Origin: a virus
Virus record (IMG/VR): IMGVR_UViG_3300000553_000334
Location: 1-24,114 of that record
DNA: 24,114 bases
Strand: one strand, 5' to 3'
Made by a program: the position numbers and the translations under genes. This document shows, piece by piece, positions 12,637 to 23,122 of this stretch (position 1 is the first letter of the stretch; each line of letters begins with the position of its first letter). Below the pieces are notes generated by a model. That model saw only the letters and a list, made by a program, of their open reading frames with translations, was not told the origin of the DNA and ran no database searches.

Positions 12637-13266
12637 TCAAATCATAAGCAAAGATTGGATTTTTTGTTCCAGTTCTTGCAAAAATAATTTGACTTCAGTT
12701 TCTAATTCGGCCACATACACCGGGTCAAACGGGACGCGCTGAATGTAAAGCTGCAATCGTTCTGGAACTCGCGGGTCATACGAAACAAAATCCACCCATT
12801 TTCGTCCGGTACAGGCCATTTGCCATTGCATTTGGTCATGATACTTTTTAGGGTATTTTTTGTTGATGATTGTCTCGAAGTGATTGGCCGAATTCGGACA
12901 CTTGATTTCTATCGCGCCATCATCCCCGACAAGGCCATCAGGCGAAGCGCCAGCGCGTTCAATTGTTGGGTGGCATATATAGCCCACTTCATCGACCATC
13001 ACGTCCTTGGCTTGCTCATACGCGGCCCGAGCAAATGGTTCTTGCATCGTTCCCCATTTCATGGCGTCGTTGGTAAAAGATTCTTCAACCGTCCCGGTCA
13101 ATCTTTCGCAAAGCAATTGAGACAAATAATTGGCGCGGGATGTGGAATAACCCGATTTGGTTTTGGCTACGATGTCCGAAATGCGCGAAGCCGTGACGTT
13201 GCCGCAACGAATTTGCTTCCATTCATCAGTCCCTTGAATCACTTTTGAGTAATCTGCGACATCCAT
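12637..13266 (-). CDS. YqaJ-family viral recombinase / exonuclease
   Basis: This 209-residue protein is of the lambda-exonuclease-like YqaJ family, a 5'-3' double-strand exonuclease that makes single strands for the annealing protein. The N-terminal GTDEWKQIRCGNVTAS (12-27) is the family start. WGTMQEPFAR (71-80) gives Glu76. The PD-(D/E)XK core is SPDG (Asp110) with EIK (Glu120, Lys122), followed by HDQMQWQMACTG (143-154). Start 13266 has GGAGTGGAAAAG directly upstream and is preferred to an ATG at 13311. It overlaps the HNH gene by 41 bases and is the last gene of the leftward operon with the ERF annealing protein. Confidence 0.9.
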   Translation of the reverse strand: MDVADYSKVIQGTDEWKQIRCGNVTASRISDIVAKTKSGYSTSRANYLSQLLCERLTGTVEESFTNDAMKWGTMQEPFARAAYEQAKDVMVDEVGYICHPTIERAGASPDGLVGDDGAIEIKCPNSANHFETIINKKYPKKYHDQMQWQMACTGRKWVDFVSYDPRVPERLQLYIQRVPFDPVYVAELETEVKLFLQELEQKIQSLLMI

Positions 13267-13888
13267 CTTTTCCACTCCATGTTTTGTTTCGTCGTTTGTC
13301 AAAATAACCATCCACCCATTTCACAATGGTTTGCTTGCTGACGCCATATTGATTGGCCGCATCTTGCAATGATTCATAAATTTTTCCATCAATTTCCCAA
13401 CGCCAAGCAATTCGTTTGTTTCTTTGTTGTTCGGATGCGGTGGCCCATCGACAATTTTCTTTTGAATAATTGCCATTGACATCGATGCGGTCCAACGATG
13501 TCCCTTTGGGTTTTTCCCCCATGTCCTTATAAAACGCTTCAAACGAATCTATCCATTGTTGGCAAATTTTGATGCCACGGCCACCATAAGACGGGTAATC
13601 TTTGCTTTTTTCGTTCAAGCAACGGTCTTTCATTGATGTCCATGTGTTGTATGTCCCGGTGTTTTTCATCCCGTGTTTTGTGTTCAAAACTTTCATGGAT
13701 TCAAAAGCGCACCGTGGACATTTTGTTTTTTTGCCGTTGCGGATTCTTGTTGCTTCATACACCCCAATGTTTCCGCAATCGCATTGACATTGCCAAAGGA
13801 CGTGATTGTCTTTGGTTCTTTCTTTCAATTCGCAAATAAATTTCAACATCTTGGCCTTTGCTGTAATGGTTTGCCAATCGTAAACCAT
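13226..13888 (-). CDS. Homing-type HNH endonuclease inserted between ERF and YqaJ genes
   Basis: This 220-residue protein starts from ATG 13888. ATG 13849, with AAAGG upstream, is an alternative. It has an N-terminal zinc-ribbon-like part (WQCQCDCGN and KCPRC, residues 32-60). The nuclease core follows: YNTWTSMKDRC, YGGRGIKIC, and SLDRIDVNGNYSKENCRWAT (131-150), which carries the D-R-I/N-Y/N-C-RW pattern of phage HNH/AP2-type homing endonucleases. The C-terminal SLQDAANQYGVSKQTIVKW (173-191) resembles a NUMOD-type helix-turn-helix used for DNA contact. Such genes spread by cutting intergenic sites in uninfected relatives. It is wedged into the recombination operon and overlaps the yqaJ start. 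Confidence 0.85.
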   Translation of the reverse strand: MVYDWQTITAKAKMLKFICELKERTKDNHVLWQCQCDCGNIGVYEATRIRNGKKTKCPRCAFESMKVLNTKHGMKNTGTYNTWTSMKDRCLNEKSKDYPSYGGRGIKICQQWIDSFEAFYKDMGEKPKGTSLDRIDVNGNYSKENCRWATASEQQRNKRIAWRWEIDGKIYESLQDAANQYGVSKQTIVKWVDGYFDKRRNKTWSGKDGCRRLLKSDSRD

Positions 13889-13891
13889 TAC
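13863..13891. repeat. 10-bp inverted repeat over the HNH start
   Basis: GTAATGGTTT (13863-13872) and AAACCATTAC (13882-13891) are perfect complements around a 9-base loop. On the minus strand the first ATG of the endonuclease gene (13888) lies inside one arm, and the second ATG with its AAAGG site lies just after the other arm. In RNA, the hairpin could hide the first start codon. Confidence 0.6.
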
Positions 13892-13907
13892 GGCAATGTA
13901 GACAAGA

Positions 13908-14507
13908 TTAAATTGCTGCTTTTTTGCGGTCTTTAAGGTCGAGAATTTGGTTTTGAAGCTGGATGTTACCGCCAGCAAACTTTAGCGCGGCAAAGTAAGC
14001 GGTTTTCAGTTCATCGTGCGTTCGGGCGTTTTCCATATTGGCAAGATATGGCGTCAAGTCGGCCAATGATGGGCCACCGCTGACTTGGTGGTTGTCGATT
14101 TCCACATCAATGGCTTCCGTCGGGATGCTGAACGCTTGGAAACAGGCGTATTTGTAAGCCGTGGACATTGCTTTGTTGGTGGCTTTGTCGGACGAATCCA
14201 TTGCTTCACCAAACGTTTTTACGATGTGTTTTGACCCATCTTCCACGCTGACGAAATCGAATTCGGCTTCCACGGTGACGTAAAAAAGAACCTTATTGCT
14301 GGCGCTGACCCGTTCCGCACAGGTTCGGTTTAAAACACGGGGCAAAATGCAAAGCCCATGTTTTGGCAGCAATTCGGCCAAGGCGTTATAAACGTCATCG
14401 ATGCCCCGAAAATGATAGATTGACCCGGAATCCGTCTTGCGGTTTTTGGCGATTCCACGCACCGACAAAGCGGCTTGAACGTCGCTGATTGCTTTATAGA
14501 CTTTCAT
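13908..14507 (-). CDS. erf: ERF-family single-strand DNA annealing protein
   Basis: This 199-residue protein has clear ERF-superfamily motifs: IYHFRGIDDVYNALAELLPKHGL (30-52), LFYVTVEAEFDFVSVEDGS (74-92) and GEAMDSSDKATNKAMSTAYKYA (100-121), followed by SIPTE. These proteins form rings on single-stranded DNA and anneal complementary strands in phage recombination and end circularisation, together with the exonuclease encoded downstream. Start 14507 is chosen over 14531 because it forms an ATGA overlap with the upstream stop. The C-terminal 50 residues are variable. Its natural partner YqaJ is now separated from it by the HNH gene. Confidence 0.9.
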   Translation of the reverse strand: MKVYKAISDVQAALSVRGIAKNRKTDSGSIYHFRGIDDVYNALAELLPKHGLCILPRVLNRTCAERVSASNKVLFYVTVEAEFDFVSVEDGSKHIVKTFGEAMDSSDKATNKAMSTAYKYACFQAFSIPTEAIDVEIDNHQVSGGPSLADLTPYLANMENARTHDELKTAYFAALKFAGGNIQLQNQILDLKDRKKAAI

Positions 14508-20053: not shown

Positions 20054-20504
20054 ACGGACGAATCGCAAGCATTACGCGTTGATTGACCCGATTGCCCACG
20101 CTATCGCTGGCGCTGCCATCACGACCAAGGACGCATTGGACAAATTGCGGGTTTTGGAACTGTCGGCGCTTGAATCACTCAGCAAAGGCAAAGCAACCGT
20201 GGCCGATTGGCGAGCGTTGACCGATATGCTGAACTTGGCCCAAACAATGGGACTAAACGGCATCGGACCCGAAGTTCTGCCGATTTGTGATGTGGCGCAA
20301 GCCGAACTGTTGGCCGCGGCGCAACGTTATGAAAAAACCAAATCAATGGTGACTACTGCAAAAGGTTTACAAGCATTGCGTGATTTGTATGAATACCACG
20401 ATTTACAACGTTCAAGTGTTTCACGCGCTGAATACGAACGCATGATTAAAAAAACCCGCGATTATATTATTTCAAATAATCAATATGTGGTCGAGGTGGT
20501 ATAA
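20046..20504 (+). CDS. Conserved hypothetical phage protein
   Basis: ATG 20046 is chosen because a longer frame from 19998 would only re-read the end of the previous gene. The 152-residue product begins MRKRTNRKHYALIDPIAHAI, then AGAAITTKDALDKLRVLEL and TVADWRALTDMLNLAQTMG. It has a helical C-terminus with a basic patch. I recall proteins with the start RTNRKHY.L..P in Burkholderiales phages located next to ninB, without known function. The TAA overlaps the NinB ATG. Confidence 0.55.
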   Translation: MRKRTNRKHYALIDPIAHAIAGAAITTKDALDKLRVLELSALESLSKGKATVADWRALTDMLNLAQTMGLNGIGPEVLPICDVAQAELLAAAQRYEKTKSMVTTAKGLQALRDLYEYHDLQRSSVSRAEYERMIKKTRDYIISNNQYVVEVV

Positions 20505-21178
20505 TGAAAGTAATTCTGCATGACCCAAAACAGGCGCATGAATTTTTATTAAACATTTGGCCGAAAATCAAAGACGCATTATCTAACAACAGGCGATTGG
20601 AAATGATAATACAAGACGAAAAACGGACGAATGACCAAAATGCGTTATTTCACGCAATCATTCACCAGATTGCCAAAGAAGCCGAACATATGGGCGCAAG
20701 ATGGGACACCGAAAGCTGGAAGCGGTTTTTGGTGGACCAATTTTCAAGTGAAGTTTTCCACAAATCTGGCCGTGTTGTTCCAAGCCTAGACAATCAGCGC
20801 GTGGTACAGCTTGGACTACAAACCAGAGACTTCAGCAAACAAGAAGCCACCGAATTCACAGAATGGTTGCTTGCATGGGCCGCAAACGCGGGAATTGATG
20901 TTGTCATGCAGGCGCCGGAATTGAAGGATTCATATTCCACCTACATGCAAAGCAAGAATTTTCCGGTTGAAGCCATTTTCAAGGACATCAGCGAGGTCAA
21001 AAGTGCCTTGCGCGACCGCAAAGTCACATTTACCGGCAACATCCGATTGACTGGACCAGTGGAGCAATTCCAAGATCGAGTGAGGATGCGATCCATTGAC
21101 GGGGAAGCATTACCCAATGGCTCGGTACCCAAATGGACGGAGATCATCGTGCGAGACCAAATTAGAGATCAAGAGTGA
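20504..21178 (+). CDS. ninB: NinB-family recombination protein fused to a foreign C-terminal segment
   Basis: Residues 1-131 are a typical NinB: KRTNDQNALFHAIIHQIAKE (40-59), WKRFLVDQF (72-80) and FTEWLLAWAANAGI (118-131). NinB proteins bind single-stranded DNA and act in phage recombination, and usually end about ten residues later. Here the frame continues in register for another 93 residues with unrelated sequence (TFTGNIRLTGPVEQFQDRVR, then DGEALPNGSVPKWTEIIVRD). That segment has a different codon style and ends in an overlap (GAGTGACC) with the RelA/SpoT gene. The added part is therefore the C-terminus of a foreign protein, of no family I recognise, joined to NinB at about 20888-20905. 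Confidence 0.75.
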   Translation: MKVILHDPKQAHEFLLNIWPKIKDALSNNRRLEMIIQDEKRTNDQNALFHAIIHQIAKEAEHMGARWDTESWKRFLVDQFSSEVFHKSGRVVPSLDNQRVVQLGLQTRDFSKQEATEFTEWLLAWAANAGIDVVMQAPELKDSYSTYMQSKNFPVEAIFKDISEVKSALRDRKVTFTGNIRLTGPVEQFQDRVRMRSIDGEALPNGSVPKWTEIIVRDQIRDQE

Positions 21179-22161
21179 CCGAAGCCGAATTCCGTGATCG
21201 ATGGCGGACTGAGCGCCCCATCTACGCGGCGTGGGGTGACTTCGTGCGGCAAAAAATCTGCGAGAGAGTTGGCGAGGTGGTGGCACCAGTGTCACTCGAC
21301 TACTTTTTGAAAGTCCCGGTCAAGCCAAGACTGAAAGAGGAAGCCACACTTGTAGACAAGGCCTTCCATCGGAAGAAGCCATACACCGATCCGTATGGTG
21401 ACATCACTGACAAGATCGGCATGCGCTTTGTCGTGCTGCTGACAACCGACATCACCACTATTTGCAATGCCCTTGAAGAATTGGGCACTTTTTGGACTCA
21501 CTCCAAGGATCGGGACTATGAAACTGAGCGGCTGGAAAAGCCTCTCGAATTTTCATACCAATCCATGCACTACGTCGTGCGTGCAAACTCCAATGTTCAG
21601 CATAACGGCATCATCATTCCAGCTGGCACGCCCTGTGAAATTCAAGTCCGCACGCTGTTGCAACATGCACATAGCGAACTGACCCACGACACCCTATATA
21701 AACCGAAAACAACGGCTCAGCCGGCGGTCAAACGCAAGATTGCAAAAAGCATGGCCCTAATTGAGGCCACTGATGAGTTCTTCACTCAGGCCATGGCGCA
21801 GCTGAAACATGCAACTGCGCCACAGACAGATTTGCTGACCGCCCTTGGTCAGCTCTACACAAGCGAGATTGGCATCGATCCCGAGGTCGAGAGATCGAAT
21901 CAGCTAGTGATCGACACCTTCGCAGACAGGCTCCCGGACAATCCGTCCACCACAATCGCGGATTACCTCAAAAACAATTCGTTCGTCTTCAACAAGATCA
22001 AAGAGAGGCGCACGGACAATCATTTCTACCGCCAGCCGCTATCAATGCTTGCCTACTATTTAGTGCATGCGATGCCTTCGCAGACCAAAGACCTTTGGCC
22101 GTTGGAAGTCACTGACTTGGCCCAAGTATTCAGCGATCTGGGCAAGAAGTTCGAGCACTAA
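21175..22161 (+). CDS. RelA/SpoT-domain nucleotide pyrophosphokinase-like protein
   Basis: This 328-residue protein starts at GTG inside the upstream stop (GTGA overlap). The RelA/SpoT synthetase fold spans about residues 30-180: basic segment VKPRLKEEATLVDKAFHRKK (49-68), DITDKIGMRFVV (76-87), YQSMHYVV (128-135), EIQVRT (155-160) and HAHSELTHDTLYK (164-176). These match the synthetase core that transfers pyrophosphate from ATP to GDP/GTP, or in toxic relatives to other substrates. No HD hydrolase domain, TGS or ACT is present. Residues about 185-328 form a helical domain unknown to me. It might be an alarmone synthetase, or a toxin of the small-synthetase type whose partner would be the upstream gene, of which only the end survives. 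Confidence 0.75.
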   Translation: MTEAEFRDRWRTERPIYAAWGDFVRQKICERVGEVVAPVSLDYFLKVPVKPRLKEEATLVDKAFHRKKPYTDPYGDITDKIGMRFVVLLTTDITTICNALEELGTFWTHSKDRDYETERLEKPLEFSYQSMHYVVRANSNVQHNGIIIPAGTPCEIQVRTLLQHAHSELTHDTLYKPKTTAQPAVKRKIAKSMALIEATDEFFTQAMAQLKHATAPQTDLLTALGQLYTSEIGIDPEVERSNQLVIDTFADRLPDNPSTTIADYLKNNSFVFNKIKERRTDNHFYRQPLSMLAYYLVHAMPSQTKDLWPLEVTDLAQVFSDLGKKFEH

Positions 22162-22793
22162 CGCCCAACGCCAAAGGACCTTGCCAAAATGGCGTCAAAG
22201 GCCGCTTGCGCTACTGCCTTTGCAGATGACTGTTGCAAAGAAATCGCGCGAGCATTGGAAGCCTGCTCCGCGTATCGCTTCTGATGTTGATATGGAGCAA
22301 TCGGCAAGACGAGTTGAAATAGCTTGCCCTGAGAAATGTTTCGCATTGACGCACTGGTACCAGACGAAAGTGCTCCCAACTCTCGCCGAACATGACGCGA
22401 TTGGAAGAGAGCATGCATGTAAAGTGGTTCCACCTTCTCCGCCCATACAAAGCGCCATAACTTGTCTGGTAGCAACGTTTGACCGTTGGTGGCGTCAACA
22501 ATTGCAGTTGCGCCAACCAACTCCTCAGTATTGGCGCGAGAGAACAGCATGTCGCCCGCGCGAACCAAGTGAGACTGCGGCGGTTTGTAGCCATCTGGTG
22601 AGGGTTTACTTTCCGATTCGCGATACTGACCAGAAGTAGCGGCACTCACTTTAAGAATTCGATATGGCGAGCCATCTTCGGAACCTGCTTGCAGGTTTTT
22701 GCCACCTTCAAATCGGCTTACAAAGTCTGAAACCTTGCGCGTCGGCCACCCCTTCGGATTCGTCGCCGGATCGCCAAACATGTCCAGAAAACT
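22158..22793 (-). pseudogene. C-terminal half of a type I restriction specificity subunit (HsdS), truncated
   Basis: About 211 residues begin at the junction with SFLDMFGDPATNPKGWP, the usual entry to the second target-recognition half of HsdS. They continue through RILKVSAATSGQ, HLVRAGDMLFSRANTEELVG and the C-terminal PYQHQKRYAEQA region. A whole HsdS has about 400 residues, two recognition domains and central coils; only the distal half is here. HsdS selects the DNA site for a type I restriction-modification complex. The frame runs on into phage DNA to an ATG at 22892, but this N-terminus is antisense phage sequence. No hsdM or hsdR is visible. Its stop (22158-22160) overlaps the RelA/SpoT stop. 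Confidence 0.75.
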
Positions 22794-23122
22794 ACCCGAA
22801 ACGTAATTACATCCGTTCCAAGCGCCTATTGATGGCCGTGGCAACGCTAAATTGTCAACATTGCGGACAATACGGCGAAACGCAAGCCGCACACACCAAT
22901 TGGGGATTTGGAAAAGGTCGTTCCATCAAAGCCGACGACAACATGGTCGCCGCACTTTGTCAGACTTGCCATTCTATGATTGACCAAGGTTCAAGACTAT
23001 CAAAAGCCCAAAGAATGGAAATTTGGGAAAATGCACACATCAAAACCGTAAAAAAACTACAATTGCTTGGATTGTGGCCTAATGATGTGAAATTACCGGA
23101 AATGAACGATGCACTACGCTAA
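22664..23122 (+). CDS. HNH nuclease (DUF968-like), original start lost to the insertion
   Basis: The recognisable protein begins at about 22796 with NYIRSKRLLMAVATLNCQHCG. CQHCG, then AAHTNWG, KADDN and ALCQTCHSMIDQGSRL show a zinc-bound HNH fold (Cys64, Cys67, His77, Cys99, Cys102, His103 when numbered from 22664). Family members normally start a few residues before NY. Here the region upstream is the antisense of hsdS, and the frame is open through it to ATG 22664, which adds 43 foreign residues. ATG 22832 is an internal alternative that would lose the NYIRSKRLL part. Phages encode such nucleases in the ninB-region recombination cassette. It overlaps the next gene by 14 bases. Confidence 0.7.
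   Translation: MASHLRNLLAGFCHLQIGLQSLKPCASATPSDSSPDRQTCPENYPKRNYIRSKRLLMAVATLNCQHCGQYGETQAAHTNWGFGKGRSIKADDNMVAALCQTCHSMIDQGSRLSKAQRMEIWENAHIKTVKKLQLLGLWPNDVKLPEMNDALR

Follow-up and report, generated by a model that had tools for sequence, protein, structure and literature searches.

A precisely placed insertion between the ninB and HNH genes of a metagenomic phage fragment holds an apparent piece of an NA37-RelA/SpoT operon

The linear virus fragment IMGVR_UViG_3300000553_000334 of the metagenome collection IMG/VR (positions 1-24,114; 24,114 nucleotides, hereafter called the window) carries endolysin, Erf, YqaJ, primosomal and NinB genes together with a gene for a J-like tail tip protein. 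For the first 800 residues of the latter, the nearest phage record is that of Methylophilaceae phage P19250A (38% identity over 66%). Between the phage genes ninB and HNH of the window lies a block that contains the end of an NA37/YejK-type gene, a complete gene for a RelA/SpoT-domain synthetase and, in convergent orientation, the end of a type I restriction hsdS gene (Table 1).

A scan for NinB yielded 33 loci, five of which are close to the window, with 94-99% identity at NinB (L002-L006). In every close relative whose sequence crosses the site (L002, L003, L004 and L006), blastn and reading of the junctions showed that the counterpart of position 20905 is directly joined to that of 22792, and the flanks are 83-97% (left) and 90-98% (right) identical to those of the window. 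The fifth relative, L005, stops 10 bases before the insertion site. Because the flanks are contiguous in the four relatives spanning the site, positions 20906-22791 are an insertion, and the empty site of the relatives represents the ancestral state. Relative to these four phages, no phage base was deleted or duplicated at the insertion point. The uninterrupted ninB-HNH junction that the initial annotation had expected in related phages is thus present, and the breakpoints can be set at 20905/20906 and 22791/22792 rather than at about 20890 and 22793 as first proposed.

In the relatives, the start of the HNH gene (ATG TTG TCC TAC) falls within the end of ninB. The insertion point is inside this gene overlap, which costs NinB its last four residues and HNH its start; the uninterrupted NinB proteins of L002-L004 and L006 terminate in GIDVVLPET followed by the stop codon. 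Both damaged phage frames stay open as fusions, the NinB frame carrying on for 90 codons into the insert after its codon 134, which ends at 20905, and the HNH open frame now extending back to an ATG at 22664 within the insert. The in-frame fusion of NinB to unrelated sequence, the truncation of HsdS on its N-terminal side and the loss of the HNH start, all read earlier from the window, were therefore confirmed. The analyses of junctions and repeats likewise agree with the view that both breakpoints are inside genes and lack transposon ends: there is no target duplication, no transposase gene and no repeat at the insert ends, and none of the inverted repeats listed, eight internal pairs of 10-24 nt, pairs one end of the insert with the other. 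Rfam searches at gathering scores gave no match, and the tRNA scan found none.

Table 1. Features at and around the insertion (window coordinates).
Feature	Position	Strand	Basis
Inserted block of bacterial DNA, 1886 bp	20906..22791	.	Missing from four close relatives, whose flanks abut exactly
NA37/YejK-type gene, last 90 codons, in frame with ninB; stop TGA at 21176-21178	20906..21178	+	57% identity with the end of the L038 NA37 protein; phrog_1974 match
RelA/SpoT-domain synthetase gene, complete, 328 residues	21175..22161	+	PF04607, E 3e-13; full length relative to its relatives; predicted small alarmone synthetase fold
Type I restriction hsdS, last 210 codons, convergent, overlapping the synthetase stop	22158..22791	-	PADLOC Specificity_I, E 3.8e-51
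Phage ninB, codons 1-134; last four codons (LPET) and stop lost	20504..20905	+	PF05772, E 1.9e-17; phrog_72
Phage HNH (DUF968-like) gene lacking its first bases (ATG TTG TC)	22792..23122	+	Intact start in relatives; family matches

The composition of the block differs from that of its surroundings. Its GC content is 51.8%, vs 46.7% in 3.3 kb of flank, and GAG accounts for 21 of 40 Glu codons, vs 1 of 48 in six phage genes; the corresponding figures for CAG among Gln codons are 16 of 33 and 6 of 40. The codon use of the block is foreign. The contrast in CAG and GAG usage described by the initial annotation is therefore real, but these codons are part of a mix inside the block and do not amount to a full switch.

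The 90-residue NA37 fragment by itself is below Pfam NA37 detection. The GTG start of the synthetase gene overlaps the NA37 stop codon (GTGA), and the RelA_SpoT domain of its product scores 50.5 bits against a curated cut-off of 27. We aligned the window protein with 68 relatives from the 71 loci described below, omitting L037, L040 and L054, whose frames are split, interrupted or longer. The 69 members share 20 invariant columns, which include R52, K54, K62, D79, R84, H132, E155 and Q157, residues that we take to be catalytic. The AlphaFold2 model of the window synthetase has a mean pLDDT (predicted local distance difference test) score of 93. According to Foldseek and VIA-align analyses, residues 2-212 of the model match small alarmone synthetases, including RelP (6ewz, Z 19.1, 2.9 Å over 196 residues); the VIA-align fold matches cover only model residues 1-213, with about 115 C-terminal residues outside them. 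Its sequence and its modelled structure place the window protein in the RelA/SpoT small alarmone synthetase superfamily, as an enzyme that would produce (p)ppGpp or (pp)pApp or pyrophosphorylate tRNA.

At the other end of the block, the Specificity_I match was scored on a 244-residue open frame that continues into phage sequence, and the Pfam family Methylase_S gave no match to the hsdS fragment. The fragment resembles type I HsdS in that 208 of its residues align at 78% identity with a portion of a 372-codon frame of genome G075; it differs from a complete HsdS with two target-recognition domains in that only the C-terminal 210 residues are present.

The best relatives of the synthetase are found in a Burkholderiales metagenome-assembled genome (MAG; 63% identity), a Methylophilus MAG (56%), and Hydrogenophaga and Gallionellaceae (55%). 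The best HsdS relative, G075, is from the order of genome G001, in which 3 of 399 genomes match HsdS at E 1e-25. These relatives suggest that the bacterial DNA of the block is of betaproteobacterial origin. Since the synthetase was detected at E 1e-30 or better in only 5 of the 399 genomes of the order of G001 and 3 of the 187 genomes of the family of G004 (counting G001 and G004 themselves, the genomes of L038 and L041), it is a sporadic, accessory gene in these taxa. A single-sequence synthetase scan of genome contigs gave no match, and the exact donor of the block was not found in the sequences searched. In viral contigs, neither the single-sequence scan nor a three-member alignment scan found the synthetase of the block, and no match to either junction 28-mer was found in other viral contigs; these scans are pattern-based and may omit records very near the window.

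The view that bacterial restriction and RelA/SpoT DNA was inserted into the phage is supported, with a refinement: judging from its relatives, the part of the block outside hsdS belongs to a conserved NA37-RelA/SpoT operon, of which it is one portion. We surveyed this operon in 71 loci, three from plasmid records (L035-L037) and 68 (L038-L105) that are the strong ones of 77; the nine weak, partial loci (L106-L114) were excluded from the counts. A full-length upstream partner, i.e. an open frame on the same strand, 200 codons or longer, that ends between 48 bases before and 7 bases after the synthetase start, is present in 67 of the 71 loci, and in 45 of these 67 the 4-base overlap is identical to that of the window. 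All 54 full-length partners scanned (of 67) match Pfam NA37, and the L038 partner has a predicted fold that matches Escherichia coli YejK (9be2, E 1.5e-8). The four loci without a full-length partner are L042 and L063, at contig ends, L095, whose NA37 frame is interrupted, and the gonococcal L037. The NA37-RelA/SpoT pair is thus a conserved and widespread operon. In the gonococcal locus (L037:7949-9995), the synthetase is split over two frames, and a 346-codon NA37-like frame in front of it is open.

In at least ten loci, a gene matching DUF4231/SLATT lies upstream of the NA37 gene; four of these ten matches are above the Pfam cut-off, ten is a lower bound, and two of the loci are from similar Enterovibrio MAGs. 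When 5,426 E. coli genomes were searched at the DNA level, the three-gene form was detected in two of them, at about 65% identity; one more genome matched over 15% only. The two strains harbour DUF4231, NA37 and GTP pyrophosphokinase genes (L120:7854-10374 and L121:7785-10335) in the company of genes for a relaxase, mobilisation proteins and an integrase, at a tRNA-Thr gene adjacent to proA; in one of the strains, the integrase gene is annotated as a pseudogene. In these two strains, the operon looks like the cargo of a mobilisable island.

From its genomic context, the NA37-RelA/SpoT operon is probably an antiphage system. The YejK nucleoid-associated domain is among the domains newly validated in phage defence (PMC13092281). 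Among the matches listed in our literature search, no paper evidently links NA37/YejK and RelA/SpoT as one system. Three observations weigh against reading the block as a captured piece of an immunity operon. A survey of 139 direct neighbours from 42 loci, covering proteins of 100-600 residues, does not show enrichment in known defence genes; 227 PADLOC models had a match, none with more than two members, and phage integrase domains were found in 5 of the neighbours. As the survey had no control set, we make no claim of a defence island. At E 1e-3, the hsdS fragment of the window had no match in the 71 loci, a weak negative since this search also missed the diverged hsdS gene of L085. The main text of PMC13092281 is silent on a partner of the YejK system, RelA/SpoT or other. 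As a separate observation, a Pfam-recognised hsdS gene ends 10 bases before NA37 in L085 (L085:3768-7047), a second link to type I restriction.

Nucleotide-signal immunity systems containing SLATT proteins, akin to the cyclic oligonucleotide-based antiphage signalling systems (CBASS), offer one point of comparison: the ten loci mentioned above have a SLATT/DUF4231-matching gene before NA37, but the nucleotide enzyme is here of the RelA/SpoT type. Likewise, the upstream partner belongs to the same family as YejK/NdpA (PF04245, NA37), as illustrated by the fold match of the L038 protein, and differs from it in being co-operonic with a RelA/SpoT gene. In the toxin-antitoxin systems CapRel (PMC9712102) and toxSAS (PMC11782079), a synthetase domain of the RelA/SpoT type is the growth-stopping effector. 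CapRel is indeed among the fold matches of the window synthetase (7ztb, Z 13.8); unlike those systems, the operon partner is here of the YejK type, and the C-terminal extension of the synthetase is outside the fold matches. In bacteria, the operon most likely encodes an abortive-infection pair with an alarmone-type effector. The YejK-like protein would bind or sense DNA, or the invader, and control the RelA/SpoT enzyme, which would make an alarmone or pyrophosphorylate tRNA and so stop growth; where present, the SLATT protein would serve as a membrane effector. A bolder proposal is that (SLATT)-NA37-RelA/SpoT represents an uncharacterised immunity class in which a DNA-binding protein of the YejK type switches on a RelA/SpoT enzyme, whose product stops growth or, in the three-gene forms, opens a SLATT membrane channel, and that the phage took the effector half, without its partner, under the control of the ninB operon; we hold this to be rather unlikely. 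The gene make-up of the operon suggests alarmone-based immunity regulated by a nucleoid-type protein. The capture draws attention to a widespread but little-studied defence candidate, and we find this donor operon more interesting than the capture itself.

The initial annotation also described the insertion as splitting a phage recombination cassette. This holds for the four close relatives, in which the cassette is uninterrupted, but the 'ninB-HNH cassette' is not universal, because the HNH gene abuts ninB in only 8 of the 33 ninB loci, namely the four close relatives and L013-L016, whose printed junctions are identical. Within the sequence at hand, HNH is 1.3-3.3 kb away in 11 loci and was not found in 14, including L005, whose sequence ends at the site. 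In the 11 distant loci (L008-L011, L021, L022 and L025-L029), these 1.3-3.3 kb are occupied by small accessory genes. The proteins of the interval include HNH endonucleases and products of queuine-type genes (38 of 54 scanned, after removal of minus-strand frames and of the near-copies in L010 and L022). The ninB-HNH interval is thus a variable slot in distant phages.

We consider it likely that the block was acquired in one event, in which a betaproteobacterial fragment of about 1.9 kb was joined into a double-strand break of the phage genome by blunt or near-blunt end joining. The break would have occurred during infection of a Betaproteobacterium, and the bacterial fragment would have been ligated into it without loss or gain of phage bases. 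The insertion is exact, its ends are internal to genes and the genes are bacterial; end joining is what we infer as the mechanism, because there are no end repeats, no transposase gene and no target duplication, and microhomology probably amounts to at most 1 bp. The last estimate comes from relatives of the two truncated genes. Seven NA37 relatives were read at the codon that precedes the left end; six of them have Tyr there, and the seventh is shifted by a single residue. At the right end, the one HsdS relative with 78% identity has Leu as the preceding residue. Provided that the donor had these residues, it would have shared no base with the phage at the right end and no more than one at the left. 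Such a pattern is that of blunt or near-blunt end joining. The presence of Ku genes in 56 of 200 genomes of the family of G001 and 13 of 187 of that of G004 also counts in favour. Phages are known to capture host genes as morons or by illegitimate recombination. Like such cases, the window has bacterial genes in an accessory region of a phage without extended homology to the site; the difference is that its block is a gene-internal fragment that breaks two phage genes rather than a self-contained cassette. The locus would be a nearly scar-free record of the route taken by bacterial immune genes into a phage genome: the target site is neither lost nor duplicated, the joints show hardly any homology, and related phages, too, keep accessory genes in this interval.

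A number of points speak against this scenario. The evidence comes from one contig, whose junctions were not found elsewhere in viral contigs, and the microhomology was deduced from relatives rather than from the donor. In the two families surveyed for Ku genes, most genomes lack them. Lastly, positions 20882-20907 match positions 20908-20933 at 19 of 26 bases, an imperfect tandem similarity across the left junction that does not fit pure blunt joining. It is the only notable direct repeat at the junctions, and about 0.1% of random 40-base pairs score at least as high (one of seven comparisons). A crossover within this similarity was rejected, as both copies are kept. An intron or intein was also rejected, with three genes on two strands and a closed frame, as was a transposon, for lack of ends.

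The contig could also be an assembly or library chimera in which bacterial sequence became attached to that of the phage in vitro or in silico. The fragment is derived from a metagenome, the block and its junctions occur in no other viral contig scanned, and the block ends within genes and corresponds to no known mobile element. However, both flanks derive from a single phage and, in four relatives, adjoin with no base missing or extra, which makes a chimera unlikely: an artefact would require two independent misjoins at one position, and the exact repeats in and around the block are all too short for the usual k-mer misjoin. We give even less weight to the idea that a mobile element which does not duplicate its target carried the block, or that short homology guided recombination. 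Mechanisms of the IS200/IS605, IS91 and IS110 types are not known to produce a target duplication. The target is indeed neither duplicated nor deleted, and the similarity across the left junction might be taken as such a homology. Yet no transposase gene or end repeats are present, the ends are inside genes, and both copies of the similar stretch were kept, unlike after a crossover; this option appears very improbable.

As for its role in the phage, the block is most likely cargo that was acquired recently and is not under selection, the result of a chance capture. Because the NinB-NA37 fusion is in frame and its stop codon overlaps the synthetase start, co-translation of the synthetase from the ninB operon is conceivable, and the block may affect the host or rival phages. 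That the phage keeps the synthetase as a weapon, its expression from the ninB operon blocking superinfecting phages or the host, is nevertheless doubtful, more so than a chimeric contig. The synthetase gene is complete and has retained the columns invariant across the 69 aligned members, the frame and the start/stop overlap with ninB are kept, and related phages vary in the content of this interval. On the other hand, the NA37 partner is cut to 90 residues, the hsdS fragment lacks its N-terminal part, and the block was found in no further phage contig.

A second window-specific insertion relative to L002-L006 is located between the erf and yqaJ genes, at positions 13211-13911. There, an HNH endonuclease gene (13226-13978, minus strand, phrog_374) replaces 32-36 bp of L002-L006; it looks like a homing-type gene.

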